A DNA stretch of 64,000 nt. It comes from Microbulbifer sediminum. Its GTDB lineage: Bacteria; Pseudomonadota; Gammaproteobacteria; Pseudomonadales; Cellvibrionaceae. The stretch's first letter is position 1. Each line of letters starts with the position of its first letter. Below, piece by piece: positions 36,275-42,074 of this stretch. A program made the translations under genes and the position numbers. The stretch spans positions 558,001 through 622,000 of the forward strand of contig NZ_JAJSAP010000001.1 of NCBI RefSeq assembly GCF_021729035.1, read 5' to 3'. The notes beneath the pieces were generated by a model that was given only the letters and a program-made list of their open reading frames with translations, was not told the DNA's origin and ran no database searches.

Positions 36275-36766
36275 TCAGAAGGTCAGGATCATGGTGCCGG
36301 ACCAGAAATTCACGTCCTCTTCGATCATGGTGTACTCGAACTCGACATTGGTGTTCGGGCTCAGGTTCAGGCCGATGCCACCGCCTACGGAGATGCCGGT
36401 GTCGTCGCTGCTGTAGCCGCCCACGCTCACGTCTTCGTAGATCAGGCCCAGGCGGCCCTTGAAGTAGACGTCACCGAAGGAGCGGTAAGTGCCGTAGCCA
36501 CCCAGGGTCTGGATATCCACATCGATGTCGCGGCCGTCGAAGGCATCCGCCTCGCCGCTGATCAGGGAATCGGTGAACTCACCCTCGAAGCCCCACCCGG
36601 AGGAGAAGGTGTAGCCGCCGCGCAGGCCGAAGTTGATCGGGTCGTCAACGGTGTTGGCGTCAACCGTCATCAGGCCGGCTGTGGCGCCCCAGTAGCCGCC
36701 CTCGGCGTTCGCTGCAGAAGAACAAACCAGTGCCAGGGCCGCCAGGCCCGTCGCCAATTTACGCAT
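36275..36766 (-). CDS. Small outer-membrane beta-barrel protein
   Basis: The 163-residue product has a signal peptide (residues 1-20, LVCSSAANAEGG) followed by alternating beta strands typical of an eight-stranded OmpA/OmpX-like barrel (GLRGGYTFSSGWGFEGEF, FKGRLGLIYEDV, GGGIGLNLSPNTNVEFEYTM). It ends in Phe (MILTF), the usual BAM recognition signal. The ATG at 36766 starts the signal peptide; a TTG five codons upstream is less likely. Function unknown. Confidence 0.85.
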   Translation of the reverse strand: MRKLATGLAALALVCSSAANAEGGYWGATAGLMTVDANTVDDPINFGLRGGYTFSSGWGFEGEFTDSLISGEADAFDGRDIDVDIQTLGGYGTYRSFGDVYFKGRLGLIYEDVSVGGYSSDDTGISVGGGIGLNLSPNTNVEFEYTMIEEDVNFWSGTMILTF

Positions 36767-37158
36767 AAGGAAAATCCCCAAGTTGTTGTGGTGATCGAAT
36801 TTGCGCGGATTCTATCCGCCTTTTCCTGGTCCAGCCAGTCACCTGTTCACATCCCAAGGGGTGTACAGGTCTCAGGCTGGCAATAGACCCGGCTGTCGCG
36901 AGAATCGTTCCACCGGTAGGGGAAAAAGTCACAATTCAGCCGCAATCGCCCCCGCTGGCGCCATAAGCCTCTCACTCACTGCTACATTGAGTTGGCTCCG
37001 GAGTTGTCGCCCGATAAAGGACAAACCGACGTCAAGACCCCGGAAGTCCCTGCCCGACATTTTGACCACTGGTGATTAACAGAACCTGAACAGAACCAGA
37101 CAATGACATTTCACGGATCGATGCGTTAACAGCTCAATACCAAGAGACGGAGACAGCG
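36767..37158. other. Intergenic region between divergent genes
   Basis: About 390 bases between the barrel gene and the first hemerythrin, presumably carrying both promoters. No reading frame is credible. A partial palindrome ACCACTGGT lies at 37065-37073 within TTTTGACCACTGGTGATTAA. It shares TTGAC with half of an FNR site but lacks the second half, so I do not call it an FNR box. Confidence 0.4.
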
Positions 37159-37725
37159 ATGGACAGCATCTACGTACAATTGTGCCAGGATCACGGGAAT
37201 ATCCAGCAGGTGCTCGACGCCTTCGAACAACTGCTGGTGGACATGGCGCGCGAGGACCGCGACCCGTCAACCCTCGACCTGATCATCGATGCGCTGGATT
37301 ACATCGCCATCTACCCGGAAAAGTGGCATCACCCGGTAGAGGATATTACCTGCGAGCTACTGCTTGCCAAGCCCGGGATTGAGCCGGAGCCGATTCTCCG
37401 CGCCCGCGAGGAACATCGTCGCCTGGCGCAGGAAACACGCAAGATGAAGGAATTGTTTTACACCGTCGCCAATGATTGCGCAGTGGAGCGGGATCACCTG
37501 TATGGGGCGGCGCGCCAATATTTGGCGGCCCAGCGCTCCCATATCCTGATGGAAAACCACTGTGTCTTTCCATTAATGGAACGCTACCTGGATGCGGCCG
37601 ACTGGGAGCAGGTGCGCGCACGACTGGGCGACCGCGTGGACCCACTGTTCGGGCCGGCAATGCGCGACCAGTACGATGCCATGCAGCGGTATGTCAGCGA
37701 CCTCCGGACAACGGCACCCGCCTGA
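37159..37725 (+). CDS. Hemerythrin-domain protein (first copy)
   Basis: The 188-residue helical protein has the histidine/carboxylate pattern of a hemerythrin HHE domain, which binds a di-iron centre for O2, NO or redox sensing: QDHGNIQQVLDAFEQLL (His12), YPEKWHHPVEDI, REEHRRLAQ and QRSHILMENHCVFPLME. It is cytoplasmic, with no signal peptide. The ATG follows GACGGAGACAGCG. It lies next to, and converges on, the FNR-type regulator gene and is a clear paralogue of the hemerythrin at 41048 (shared LYRQLC/IYVQLC start, LDALDYI(A/S)(I/V)YP and WHHPVED). Confidence 0.9.
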   Translation: MDSIYVQLCQDHGNIQQVLDAFEQLLVDMAREDRDPSTLDLIIDALDYIAIYPEKWHHPVEDITCELLLAKPGIEPEPILRAREEHRRLAQETRKMKELFYTVANDCAVERDHLYGAARQYLAAQRSHILMENHCVFPLMERYLDAADWEQVRARLGDRVDPLFGPAMRDQYDAMQRYVSDLRTTAPA

Positions 37726-37765: not shown

Positions 37766-38521
37766 TCAGACGGTCGCCGAACGGCGACCGATTTCACTCT
37801 CATCATAGCCGCAGTGGGTGCCGGCCAGTTCACTGAGCCCGATCAGGTCGAGCACTTCCACCTCACGCCCGCTCACCCGGATCAGCCCGTCTTTCTGCAG
37901 CGCCTTGAACAGGCGGCTCACCGTTTCCGGCGTCAGCCCCAGGTAATTGGCGATATCCGTGCGCGGCATTGAGAGTACGAACCGGCTGGCGGAATATCCG
38001 CGCCGGGCATAGCGGCTGGAAATATTCACCAGCAGCGCCGCCAGGCGGGCGTTGGCCGCGCGCTTGCCCAGTAGCAGCAGGATCTCGTTCTCCTGCCGCA
38101 ACTCTTCCGAGAAGATACTGTAGATCTGCTGTTGCAGGGCGGGAACTTCCTGCGCCAGGCTTTCCAGCTGGCTGAAGGGCAGCACACAGATACTGCTGTC
38201 CTCCAGCGCCTCGGCGTAACTGGGATGGGTGCGGCTGCTGTAGGCATCCAGCCCGAGCAGTTCCCCGGGCAGCGCGAAATGCGTGACCTGGGTATCCCCG
38301 TCGGACGCGATCACGGCGGTCTTGAAGCTGCCGGAGCGGATGGCATAGAGATTGTGGAAGGAATCGCCGCTGCGGTAGAGCGTCTCCCCCGCCTTCACCA
38401 GCCGCTTGTTGCGCGTCACCCGCTCGAGACGGTCGATATCTTCCACCGGAAGCCCGGCGGGCAGGCACAGGCGACGCACCGAGCATTCACTGCACTTTAC
38501 TGCGTGGCGACTGTCTTTCAT
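37766..38521 (-). CDS. FNR/Anr-type oxygen-responsive regulator
   Basis: A CRP/FNR-family regulator of 251 residues. The N-terminus has Cys10, Cys13 and Cys19 in the CxxCxxxxxC spacing of FNR, and Cys112 in SSICVLPF provides the fourth ligand of an oxygen-labile [4Fe-4S] cluster. The cyclic-nucleotide-fold sensor (about 25-150) is followed by a dimerisation helix and a helix-turn-helix with recognition segment LTPETVSRLFKAL, whose Glu, Ser and Arg match the residues that read TTGAT-N4-ATCAA. Two such sites lie at 40891 and 40971. Known as fnr, anr or etrA in related bacteria. It is likely transcribed after hemN (98-base gap). Confidence 0.94.
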   Translation of the reverse strand: MKDSRHAVKCSECSVRRLCLPAGLPVEDIDRLERVTRNKRLVKAGETLYRSGDSFHNLYAIRSGSFKTAVIASDGDTQVTHFALPGELLGLDAYSSRTHPSYAEALEDSSICVLPFSQLESLAQEVPALQQQIYSIFSEELRQENEILLLLGKRAANARLAALLVNISSRYARRGYSASRFVLSMPRTDIANYLGLTPETVSRLFKALQKDGLIRVSGREVEVLDLIGLSELAGTHCGYDESEIGRRSATV

Positions 38522-38619: not shown

Positions 38620-40005
38620 TCAGAGTACCCGGGAGTAACGCCGCTCACCGGCAGGTTCGTGCAGGTAGGCATCGAAGGCCGCCGCCACATTGCGCGTGAA
38701 CCAGCGTCCGCGGTCGGTGATGACCAGGTCGCCGCCTTCCTCACGCACCAGGCCGTCAGCCATCAGCGGCTGCAGGCGCTCCAGCTCCGCGGCGAACGCC
38801 TCTGCCAGCGGCGCGCCGGCACGGTCTGCCACGGCCCGGTGGTCCAGCCGCATGCGGCACATCAGCTCCATGATCAGGTACTGGCGCAGGCGGTCATCCT
38901 CCGACATGGCCCAGCCACGGAAGCCGGCAAAGCCCCGCTCGCGAATGGCTTCCACATAGTCCTTCAGCCGGTGGTGGTTCTGCCAGTAACCGCCGGCGCT
39001 GTAGCTGATCGCGGAGGCACCCAGGCCGATCAGGGCATCCGCGGGCATCAGGGTATAGCCCTGGAAGTTGCGCCGCAGTTCGCCGGCGCGGGCAGCCCGG
39101 GCCAGTTCGTCGCCCGGCAGGGCAAAGTGGTCCATGCCCAGGAACTCGTAGCCCGCGTCCCCCAGCATTTCGACGGCTCCCACCTGCATGGCAATCTTGT
39201 CCGCCGGGGCCGGCATGGCGTCGGTATTGATCAGCCGCTGGGCCTTGAAGCGCTCCGGCAGGTGGGCGTAGTGGTAGAGCGCGATGCGGTCCGGCCCCAT
39301 CGCCACCACCCGGTCAAGGGTTTCCCGCAGGGTATCCACCGTCTGGTGCGGCAACCCGTGGATCAGGTCATAGGAAATAGAACGAAAGCCCCGTTCCCGG
39401 GCGGCGCAGGTAATCTGCTCCACCGCTTCCGGGGCGCAGATACGGTTGATGGCGCGCTGCACCTGCGGGTTGAAGTCCTGGATGCCGAGGCTCAGGCGGT
39501 TAAAGCCCAGCTCCCGCAGGGTGTCCAGGGTATCCAGGCGGAAGGTGCGCGGGTCGGCCTCGACACTGTACTCGACGCTGTCATCGCGGCGCAGGTCGAA
39601 GATCTCGCCCAGCCCCTCCACCAGCCGGTGCAAGTCCGAGTCGGTGAGGAAGGTTGGCGTGCCGCCGCCGAGGTGGAGCTGCACCACCGGGGCTGCGGCT
39701 ACCCGGTCGCGGTACCAGCGCGCCTCCTCCAGCACCCGGTCCAGGTAGCTGGACGCCAGCCCGTACTGGTTGGTGATGACCTTGTTGCACGCGCAGAAAT
39801 AGCACAGGGAGTGGCAGAACGGGATATGCACGTACAGCGACAGGCTGTCGATTTCCCGTAACGCATCCCAGGGGCGCATACCCTCCTGCAGCGGCACGAA
39901 GCGGTCCGCGGTCGGGTAGGAGGTGTAGCGGGGACAGGGGCCACTGTAGCGGGACAACAGGTCAGTCGAGAGTGCAGTATCGGCGTGTTGGTGGAGAGCG
40001 GTCAT
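38620..40005 (-). CDS. hemN: Oxygen-independent coproporphyrinogen III oxidase
   Basis: A radical SAM enzyme that oxidatively decarboxylates coproporphyrinogen III when oxygen is absent. The cluster cysteines Cys64, Cys68 and Cys71 are in HIPFCHSLCYFCAC; the N-terminal PCPRYTSYPTA and the glycine-rich LHLGGGTPTFL also match HemN. Length (461 aa) equals true HemN rather than the shorter HemW. It lies beside the FNR-type regulator, as in many pseudomonads and relatives. No FNR box is visible directly upstream (40006-40087). Confidence 0.96.
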   Translation of the reverse strand: MTALHQHADTALSTDLLSRYSGPCPRYTSYPTADRFVPLQEGMRPWDALREIDSLSLYVHIPFCHSLCYFCACNKVITNQYGLASSYLDRVLEEARWYRDRVAAAPVVQLHLGGGTPTFLTDSDLHRLVEGLGEIFDLRRDDSVEYSVEADPRTFRLDTLDTLRELGFNRLSLGIQDFNPQVQRAINRICAPEAVEQITCAARERGFRSISYDLIHGLPHQTVDTLRETLDRVVAMGPDRIALYHYAHLPERFKAQRLINTDAMPAPADKIAMQVGAVEMLGDAGYEFLGMDHFALPGDELARAARAGELRRNFQGYTLMPADALIGLGASAISYSAGGYWQNHHRLKDYVEAIRERGFAGFRGWAMSEDDRLRQYLIMELMCRMRLDHRAVADRAGAPLAEAFAAELERLQPLMADGLVREEGGDLVITDRGRWFTRNVAAAFDAYLHEPAGERRYSRVL

Positions 40006-40087
40006 CTTGGTTCATCCCGGAGCCGGGCCATCGTGCACCGGCTCCTCTATTGTCTGCAGTTCAGGGAAATTATCCGGCTCCTGGTGC

Positions 40088-40771
40088 TCAGAAGCGGTAG
40101 CCGAGCCCGGCCACGGTAACCAGCGGATCCAGTTCCACGTCCGCGGCGATGGTGCCGACGCCCGGCACGCGAACCTCGGCCTCGGTATCAATATCCATCC
40201 ACAGCACACTCAGGTTGAGCAGCCAGCGACGGTCCTGGCCGAAGCTGAAATCCACCCCTGCCTCTGCCGCGAGCCCCACGGAATTTTCGAGTGAAAGGTC
40301 GGCATCGCCAGTGGCGCCGAGCGCGGCAAAGAGTTCGTTTGCAGCGCCATCCACCTGCTCGTCGAAGAACGCGGTGTAGTTCACCCCCAGGCCGAGATAT
40401 GGCTGCAAGGGGGATCCCCCGAGGCGCGGATACCACTGCAGCAGCAGGGTGGGCGGCAGGTGGCGGGTCTCGCCAAGGGCAAAGGTGTCTCCCAGTCCCT
40501 CAACAGCGAGGTCGTGGCTGAACGGCGATGAAGCCACCAGCTCCACGCCCCAGGTATCCGTGAGCATATAGGTGGCCGTCAGGCCCAGTGCAGTACCGTC
40601 ATCCACATCGGCCGCGGTGCCGGCAAGCGCCACGCCGGACAGGGACAGCGGGCCCGAGCTGACATCCGGGCTGACGGTGGCCGCACCGCTGCGGAGGATG
40701 ACTTCACCGGGCTGGTACGCCACAGCGTGCAGGGAAACGAGAAGGCCGGCGACGGCGGCAAATACTTTCAT
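40088..40771 (-). CDS. ompW: OmpW-family outer-membrane protein (first copy)
   Basis: An eight-stranded outer-membrane barrel thought to admit small hydrophobic compounds. The signal peptide covers about residues 1-19 (LLVSLHAVAYQPG). Family segments are VILRSGAATVSPD, TYMLTDTWGVELVASSPFSHDL, RHLPPTLLLQWYP, LQPYLGLGVNYTAFFDE and a C-terminal Phe (GLGYRF). The ATG follows GGAG by eight bases. A perfect FNR box lies upstream with a -10 element at the class II distance (see 40865); E. coli ompW is also FNR-controlled. A paralogue is at 56785. Confidence 0.93.
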   Translation of the reverse strand: MKVFAAVAGLLVSLHAVAYQPGEVILRSGAATVSPDVSSGPLSLSGVALAGTAADVDDGTALGLTATYMLTDTWGVELVASSPFSHDLAVEGLGDTFALGETRHLPPTLLLQWYPRLGGSPLQPYLGLGVNYTAFFDEQVDGAANELFAALGATGDADLSLENSVGLAAEAGVDFSFGQDRRWLLNLSVLWMDIDTEAEVRVPGVGTIAADVELDPLVTVAGLGYRF

Positions 40772-40864
40772 TTTGGGTTCTCCATACCTGATACAAGCCG
40801 CCCGCCCGAAAACATCCTGTTATTACTTTTATTACTGCCTCACAGGCGAGCGGGACGGGCGCAG

Positions 40865-40904
40865 ATTATGTTGGAGCAGAACGCCCGCAATTGATGTAAA
40901 TCAA
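40865..40904 (-). promoter_or_regulatory. FNR-activated promoter of ompW
   Basis: The perfect FNR site TTGATGTAAATCAA occupies 40891-40904. On the minus strand CATAAT (complement of 40865-40870) lies with its centre 30 bases downstream of the box centre, the class II arrangement expected when FNR binds near -41. The predicted start is near 40858, about 87 bases before the ompW ATG. Confidence 0.85.
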
Positions 40905-40970
40905 TTGCGCGGCAAACAACGAGGCTGGCCTGCCCGAGCGCGGGCGCAGCGATGCCGAAGCGCCGGTCAC

Positions 40971-41012
40971 TTGATTCAGGTCAAGGCAGCATGAGCGTAC
41001 AGATCCAATACT
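40971..41012 (+). promoter_or_regulatory. FNR-activated promoter of the second hemerythrin
   Basis: TTGATTCAGGTCAA (40971-40984) matches the FNR consensus with one changed base. AATACT (41007-41012) is a four-of-six -10 match centred 32 bases downstream of the box centre, again the class II spacing. The predicted start near 41019 would give a leader of about 29 bases before the ATG at 41048. Confidence 0.75.
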
Positions 41013-41047
41013 GCGGCCAATAACCTGACCCGGGTATGGAGATCGCC

Positions 41048-41620
41048 ATGCACCACCTCTACCGGCAGCTTTGCCGCGACCACCGCCATATGCAGCAACT
41101 CCTGGATGCCTTTGACCAGCTGCTGCAGGATTTCGCCCGGCGCGAACGGGATCCCGGCACACTGGGGCTGATCCTCGATGCCCTCGACTACATCAGCGTC
41201 TATCCGGATCGCTGGCACCACCCGGTTGAGGACCTGGCCATGGAGCGCCTGCGCACCAGGCCGGGGGCCAGGCTAGCGCCGGTTAACAAGACCCTGGCGG
41301 AGCACCGGGCCATCACCGCCGCAACCCGTCGCATGAACACCCTCTTCTACGCCATTGCCAATGATGCGGCGGTGGAGCGGGAGCAACTGTTCGGGCCTGC
41401 GCGGGAGTATCTGTCGCTGCAGCGACAGCATATGGAGCGGGAGAACCGGGAAGTATTTCCCCAGTTCGAGCGGCTGTTAACAGAAGAGGATTGGCAGGCG
41501 ATCGAGCAGCAACTGCGCTTCCAGCAGGACCCGCTGTTCAACACCGATATCCGCGGCCTGTTCGAGTCACTGCAACACTACATCGCCAACCTGCACCTGG
41601 ATGCCTGTGTCGGCACATGA
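41048..41620 (+). CDS. Hemerythrin-domain protein (second copy)
   Basis: A 190-residue cytoplasmic di-iron HHE-domain protein, paralogous to the one at 37159: CRDHRHMQQLLDAFDQLLQD, YPDRWHHPVEDLAMERL, LAEHRAITAATRRMNTLFYAIAN and QRQHMERENREVFPQFERLL supply the histidine and acidic ligands. I start at the ATG at 41048, six bases after GGAG; the ATG at 41036 is the alternative. Two FNR sites lie upstream and the nearer one is well placed for activation, so expression under low oxygen is expected. Oxygen, NO or iron binding is inferred from the fold. A SpoIIAA-like gene follows by 37 bases. Confidence 0.92.
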   Translation: MHHLYRQLCRDHRHMQQLLDAFDQLLQDFARRERDPGTLGLILDALDYISVYPDRWHHPVEDLAMERLRTRPGARLAPVNKTLAEHRAITAATRRMNTLFYAIANDAAVEREQLFGPAREYLSLQRQHMERENREVFPQFERLLTEEDWQAIEQQLRFQQDPLFNTDIRGLFESLQHYIANLHLDACVGT

Positions 41621-41657: not shown

Positions 41658-42074
41658 ATGATGGATTTCCAGCGCCACGGCCTGTCTGTCGGTATCGAGC
41701 GGATCGGGTCGGAGTTTTTCCTGCTCATCCGGATAAGGGGTGACCTGACCCACTGGGATTACGAGATCATCACCCCGCTTCTCGAGCAGGCCCTGGACTC
41801 GGTCGCCCATCCACAGGTGAAAGCACTGGTGGATATCCGCGAGCTGCGGGGCTGGGAGTGGCGTGCAGCCTGGGACGACCTCCGCCTGGGATTGCGCCAC
41901 GGCAGTGAATTTTCCCAGGTCGCCCTGCTGGGGAATGGCAACTGGCAGGAGTTGGCCACCCGCGTGGCAAACTGGTTTACCGGCGCCGAACTGCGTTACT
42001 TCCGGGCGCAGGATGATGCCCTGCAATGGCTGGCAGAAGATCCGGAAGACAGGACGGAGCGGGCACAGGCCTGA
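41658..42074 (+). CDS. SpoIIAA-like (STAS-related) protein
   Basis: The 138-residue protein fits the SpoIIAA-like family (PF11964 type), compact alpha/beta proteins related to STAS domains. Typical segments are LTHWDYEIITPLLEQAL, VKALVDIRELRGWEWRAAWDDL and the C-terminal RYFRAQDDALQWL. Family members in marine bacteria are thought to bind hydrophobic or membrane-related ligands, but none is well understood. The ATG at 41658 follows AGGGAG. It lies directly after the second hemerythrin and is probably under the same FNR promoter. Confidence 0.85.
   Translation: MMDFQRHGLSVGIERIGSEFFLLIRIRGDLTHWDYEIITPLLEQALDSVAHPQVKALVDIRELRGWEWRAAWDDLRLGLRHGSEFSQVALLGNGNWQELATRVANWFTGAELRYFRAQDDALQWLAEDPEDRTERAQA

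Follow-up and report, generated by a model that had tools for sequence, protein, structure and literature searches.

What controls the 276-bp gap that separates two divergent genes of Microbulbifer sediminum, ompW and hhe2, and would it turn both on as oxygen falls? The gap belongs to a 64,000-nucleotide stretch of DNA (hereafter the window), with ompW (40088–40771, minus strand), which encodes an outer-membrane beta-barrel, on one side and hhe2 (41048–41620, plus strand), which encodes a single-domain HHE hemerythrin-like protein of 190 amino acids, on the other. The OmpW product scores 179.6 bits with PF03922 (OmpW; gathering score 24) and falls below the equivalog model NF008202 (188.4 versus 287). 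Hhe2 passes the PF01814 cut-off, and its start was moved from 41036 to 41048 on the basis of orthologue starts and an upstream GGAG.

Two sites close to the FNR box TTGATN4ATCAA sit in the gap, as the initial annotation had noticed: the ompW box (TTGATGTAAATCAA, 40891–40904, minus strand) is perfect, the hhe2 box (TTGATTCAGGTCAA, 40971–40984, plus strand) has one mismatch, and their centres are 80 bp apart. This pair is beyond chance: when the 276-bp gap was shuffled 20,000 times with its dinucleotides preserved, no shuffle held two boxes with at most one mismatch each, 141 held at least one such box and 5 held a perfect one. The whole 3.85-Mb genome has 95 sites with at most one mismatch and only three perfect sites, the ompW box among them. 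Read in one orientation, the 4-base spacer of the hhe and ompW boxes is mostly CCAR and thus more conserved than N4 implies, and an isolated A lies outside the box, 19.5 bp upstream of its centre (about −61), in 33 of 35 hhe promoters.

From its sequence, we conclude that the gap very probably comprises two independent class II FNR-dependent promoters that face in opposite directions. As oxygen falls, FNR, encoded just downstream of ompW–hemN, would keep its [4Fe-4S] cluster and dimerise; dimers would bind both boxes, each centred at about −41.5 in place of a −35 element, and each would recruit sigma-70 RNA polymerase. Leftward transcription would then cover ompW and read through into hemN, perhaps even into fnr; rightward transcription would cover hhe2 and a SpoIIAA-like gene. 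We infer the oxygen response, the transcription starts and the read-through into hemN, possibly as far as fnr. Simultaneous induction of ompW and hhe2 at low oxygen is what this arrangement predicts, and the kinetics of the two promoters need not match.

The boxes recur well beyond this one gap. A search of 96 genomes, including this one, recovered hhe in 50; Microbulbifer contributed 48 of the genomes searched, 35 of them with hhe. One locus was read per hhe-bearing genus genome (hhe2 in the window genome), and all 35, our own included, have a box with at most one mismatch upstream, its centre 52–84 bp before the gene match, although counts within the genus are not phylogenetically independent. 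Outside the genus, 14 of 16 matches were fetched (the two weakest were left out), and 8 of these 14 homologues have an upstream box. Among named genomes, a box occurs within 350 bp upstream in 20 of 20 leading Microbulbifer hhe loci and in 21 of 60 other hhe loci, being absent from that interval in the remaining 39 more distant loci, against a chance expectation of 0.034 per locus, estimated from the remainder of these sequences; three of these 60 have less than 350 bp of upstream DNA, at least three repeat genomes already read, and one, L171, is a second homologue from Microbulbifer. The Nitrosomonas hhe loci, which show only two boxes, both about 300 bp away, count against the generality of a boxed hhe.

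For ompW, we searched 58 genomes, with genus genomes G037–G047 outside the search, and from the 30 best-ranked loci returned we counted the 23 with at least 61% identity, our own included. Within this set, 22 of 23 have a box with at most one mismatch. The sole boxless locus belongs to G026, where the best site within 420 bp upstream has two mismatches; it is a genome in which no FNR was detected, and the only FNR-less genome that offers an ompW orthologue for comparison.

Judged by gene order, the close pairing of the ompW and hhe2 promoters is lineage-specific, a feature of three species. Most clusters read have the order glyA< barrel< hhe> (SpoIIAA-like>) fnr< hemN< (ompW<), with ompW either absent or far from the hhe promoter, at the opposite end. 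Among the 35 genomes, hhe2 and ompW stand back to back at short range only in the window genome, G018 and G030, where the boxes are 80, 164 and 155 bp apart; in G011 and G035, hhe and ompW likewise diverge, with 689 and 628 bp between their boxes. In named records, the back-to-back order is seen in M. yueqingensis and strain YPW16. The initial annotation had taken the back-to-back geometry as the basis of co-induction. Because this geometry is not conserved, co-induction would follow from the shared regulator instead.

The same drift in box spacing favours two independent promoters over one composite device, in which the hhe2 box (about −121.5 relative to the ompW start) would also serve ompW, for example by repressing it at very low oxygen, so that ompW would peak at microoxia while hhe2 stays on. 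The E. coli ompW promoter is a precedent in that it shares direct FNR control through TTGATN4ATCAA-type sites, and there, according to PMC4886647, FNR activates at −81.5 and represses through −126.5, a distance similar to that of the hhe2 box; here, by contrast, the conserved site and a −10 that is likewise conserved are separated by the class II distance. A composite device is nevertheless improbable, given the varied spacing in the three species and the two looser ones, and given that most other ompW loci read have a single box and no hhe beside it.

The class II geometry is a matter of the −10 elements, whose position we express as d, the number of bp between the centres of box and hexamer. 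The initial annotation placed a −10 at class II distance from each box, and the hexamers and distances (30 and 32 bp) are as it described; its choice for ompW, CATAAT (40865–40870, minus strand; 5/6 match; d = 30), does not hold up in comparison. At that position the sister species read GTTAAC (d = 29, G018) and CTTAAT (d = 30, G030), and the comparison favours TAATCT (40863–40868, minus strand), which overlaps CATAAT by four bases. The pattern TA...T occurs in all 22 boxed ompW promoters, 17 of which have it at d = 32 and the other 5 at d = 31; none has it at the remaining distances scanned (29, 30 and 33), and exact TAAYCT at d = 32 is found in 14 of the 22. TAATCT would put the ompW box centre at −41.5 if transcription starts at 40856.

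On the other side, the −10 of hhe2 is AATACT (41007–41012, plus strand; d = 32) or CAATAC (41006–41011; d = 31), with a predicted start near 41019. Across the genus, hhe promoters carry.A..AT at d = 31 in 30 of 35 and at d = 32 in 2, with AACAAT itself accounting for 24 and 2 of these, respectively; elsewhere in the same 35 promoters,.A..AT turns up twice at d = 33 and never at d = 29 or 30. The three promoters that depart from this form, those of the window, G018 and G030, all read CAATACT, which preserves both A positions shared by all 35 promoters. Column by column, conservation is highest at the box and at a −10 block 28–35 bp further along, and the spacer that separates them varies more. 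Blocks at d = 31–32 would put the box centre near −41.5, the predicted class II distance.

Could the boxes be bound by FNR without serving as class II activator sites, with transcription starting elsewhere and FNR repressing or acting at a distance? The −10 hexamers are poor (3/6 matches for TAATCT and 4/6 for AATACT), a plain sigma-70 scan scored no promoter, and the lineage to which the window belongs (3 of the 35 promoters) departs from the genus form of the hhe −10, which speaks against the class II reading. In shuffled cases, a slot of five offsets gives a match of at least 4/6 in 12% and at least 5/6 in 1.9%; taken by themselves, the −10 matches count for little, and it is conservation that carries the case. 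A sigma-70 scan would not be expected to match an activator-dependent promoter that lacks a −35. Against this alternative, 32 of the 35 hhe promoters and all 22 boxed ompW promoters keep a −10 block at a constant distance from the box, with a spacer between them that varies; we rate the alternative less probable still than the composite device.

The regulator that would act on both promoters is encoded nearby. The product of fnr (37766–38521, minus strand) scores 249.9 bits with NF008365 (cut-off 228) and, when aligned with the solved FNR 5cvr/5e44, has each of the four cluster cysteines as well as the ExxSR recognition helix (ETVSR); its start at 38521 is about 2.3 kb from 40865, in keeping with the cluster-bearing FNR homologue that the initial annotation had placed 2.4 kb away. 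Three proteins in the genome pass the HTH_Crp_2 cut-off, FNR included, and the other two, one of them CRP-like and the other with MTRQGLHRV, lack both the Cys motif and ExxSR. By these sequence features, none of the Crp/Fnr-family proteins that we found, other than FNR, fits the boxes. The idea that a different member of the family, responsive to NO or cAMP rather than oxygen, uses the boxes can point to those three HTH_Crp_2 proteins and to the near-identical boxes recognised by Dnr/NnrR-type proteins, but it is highly improbable given that neither non-FNR protein has ExxSR and that the presence of hhe follows FNR.

Of the 48 genus genomes, 43 have a detected FNR, among them all 35 that bear hhe, and the five FNR-less genomes (G007, which is only 80% complete, G015, G016, G026 and G041) are without hhe, a co-occurrence with Fisher p = 0.00075 over the 48 genomes, uncorrected for kinship. 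Since hhe, hemN and fnr are neighbours, joint loss through one deletion is possible. Perfect FNR sites number 2–12 per genome in the five FNR-less genomes and 3–28 in the other 43, so that these counts were uninformative as a global test. Eleven genus genomes (G003, G004, G006, G009, G010, G013, G029, G036, G042, G043 and G044) have two FNR genes, 72–81% identical to the window FNR, and in 10 of the 11 the two genes share a contig and are a few kb apart at most.

How far would transcription from the two promoters extend? The gene for the oxygen-independent coproporphyrinogen III oxidase, hemN (38620–40005, minus strand; TIGR00538 over cut-off), has no FNR box of its own in the window. We compared 23 distinct clusters, which remained after removal of duplicate sequences, of loci whose HemN fell below 60% identity and of those with insufficient upstream DNA. 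All 10 clusters that lack ompW immediately before hemN have a separate hemN box, as do 4 of the 13 in which ompW takes that place (Fisher p = 0.0016, relatedness uncorrected), and the ompW–hemN gap measures 60–125 bp in the 9 clusters that lack the box, as against 160–215 bp in the 4 that have it; in the window it is 82 bp. Because hemN mostly lacks its own box where ompW is directly upstream, hemN is probably driven by the ompW box as well, and ompW–hemN would be one FNR-driven unit here. A G+C-rich hairpin with an 8-bp stem (GGAGCCGG/CCGGCUCC) falls in the ompW–hemN gap (40006–40087), just before hemN (z −2.2; 5 of 200 shuffles as stable); with no T-run, it was not called a terminator. In the other direction, the SpoIIAA-like gene (41658–42074, plus strand; PF11964 over cut-off) follows hhe in many, though not all, genus loci and is a probable partner in an hhe2 operon.

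FNR/Anr control is already established for ompW/oprG and for hemN; oprG is an OmpW-family gene. The Pseudomonas Anr regulon is similar to the present locus in that oprG and hemN are core Anr targets and anr and hemN lie close together (PMC6588701); no HHE gene is named for that core regulon in the passages considered. Unlike in Pseudomonas, ompW, hemN and fnr follow one another on a single strand here, and hhe2 diverges from them.

What the rightward promoter would supply depends on the nature of Hhe2. Its invariant residues are H12, H57xxxE61, H86 and H128xxxE132, in overlapping sets of 36 and 58 aligned sequences (the larger drawn from 79 candidates). Canonical O2-carrying bacteriohemerythrins use five His, a Glu and an Asp as ligands, in motifs that include HxxxH and HxxxxD; neither motif is among the invariant residues of Hhe2 in either set, and a role as O2 carrier is not supported. 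E61 and E132 correspond to the two Glu ligands of YtfE, and by sequence the ligand set is of the YtfE type, with four His and two Glu forming a candidate di-iron site. The initial annotation's label of 'oxygen/NO-binding' goes further than the sequence, whose ligand set is that of YtfE-type HHE proteins, and we infer that a role in iron/NO handling or Fe–S repair is likelier than O2 carriage.

YtfE/RIC itself has His ligands that follow the Hhe2 pattern (PMC9268430), and it shares the overall order H; HxxxE; H; HxxxE. It also has an N-terminal ScdA_N domain, which Hhe2 lacks (PF01814 was the only domain found), making Hhe2 YtfE-like and not a full RIC. Regulation differs as well, in that hhe2 has an FNR box, whereas E. 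coli ytfE is, according to the review PMC9268430, repressed by NsrR and without a recognised FNR site. P. aeruginosa mhr is a hemerythrin-type gene under Anr, an FNR homologue, at low oxygen, as predicted for hhe2; according to PMC12403760, mhr encodes an O2-binding hemerythrin, as opposed to the YtfE-like four-His, two-Glu set of Hhe2.

A profile search with Hhe2 finds YtfE, NMB1532, FBXL5 and PF0695, and an AlphaFold2 model is a helical bundle with a pLDDT of 92.7. VIA-align with this model ranks NMB1532 (Z 16.1) and PF0695 (Z 15.5) on top, followed by unrelated bundles at 12.4; YtfE is not among its best 50 rows, which excludes nothing. Foldseek with the model and an NCBIfam search each returned no match at E ≤ 0.001, and a single-sequence PDB search returned nothing below E 0.6.

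FNR/Anr control of ompW/oprG, of hemN and of a hemerythrin is known ground, and we regard the present locus as a well-supported new instance with a lineage-specific pairing. We found no paper that combines FNR, OmpW and hemerythrin, and in the papers that we found to mention both Microbulbifer and FNR, neither word stands in a title or abstract. For Microbulbifer, the outcome is a concrete group of genes around fnr that are predicted FNR targets throughout the genus, and the analysis would tie a small YtfE-like candidate di-iron protein to FNR. A bolder, unlikely idea is that the cluster is a self-tuning oxygen module, in which a YtfE-like Hhe, encoded next to fnr and induced by FNR, would donate iron to the [4Fe-4S] clusters of FNR and HemN, or clear O2 or NO from them, and so set FNR's own oxygen threshold. 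If true, this would explain why hhe lies beside fnr and why none was found in the five FNR-less genus genomes. Species with and without FNR, and hhe genes with and without a box, form a natural comparison that makes the role of Hhe testable.

One hhe without a box is close at hand. The paralogue hhe1 (37159–37725, plus strand; 48–49% identity to hhe2) occupies the usual genus position of hhe and has no FNR box with at most one mismatch in 3 of 3 species (window, G018 and G030), which counts against an FNR-linked reading of hhe; by its upstream sequence, hhe1 may be outside FNR control. In the tree, Hhe2 groups with the hhe products of G011, G021 and G035 (100/99), and Hhe1 falls outside the other genus sequences, weakly (90/87) and with long outgroup branches. 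A second outer-membrane barrel gene (36275–36781; PF13505) is divergent from hhe1, and the cluster thus holds two divergent barrel/hemerythrin pairs. Elsewhere in the window genome (G000) there are three more HHE-domain genes, at C11:361625–362041, C8:254153–254554 and C10:83501–83893, the first of which matches PF01814 much better than hhe2 does.
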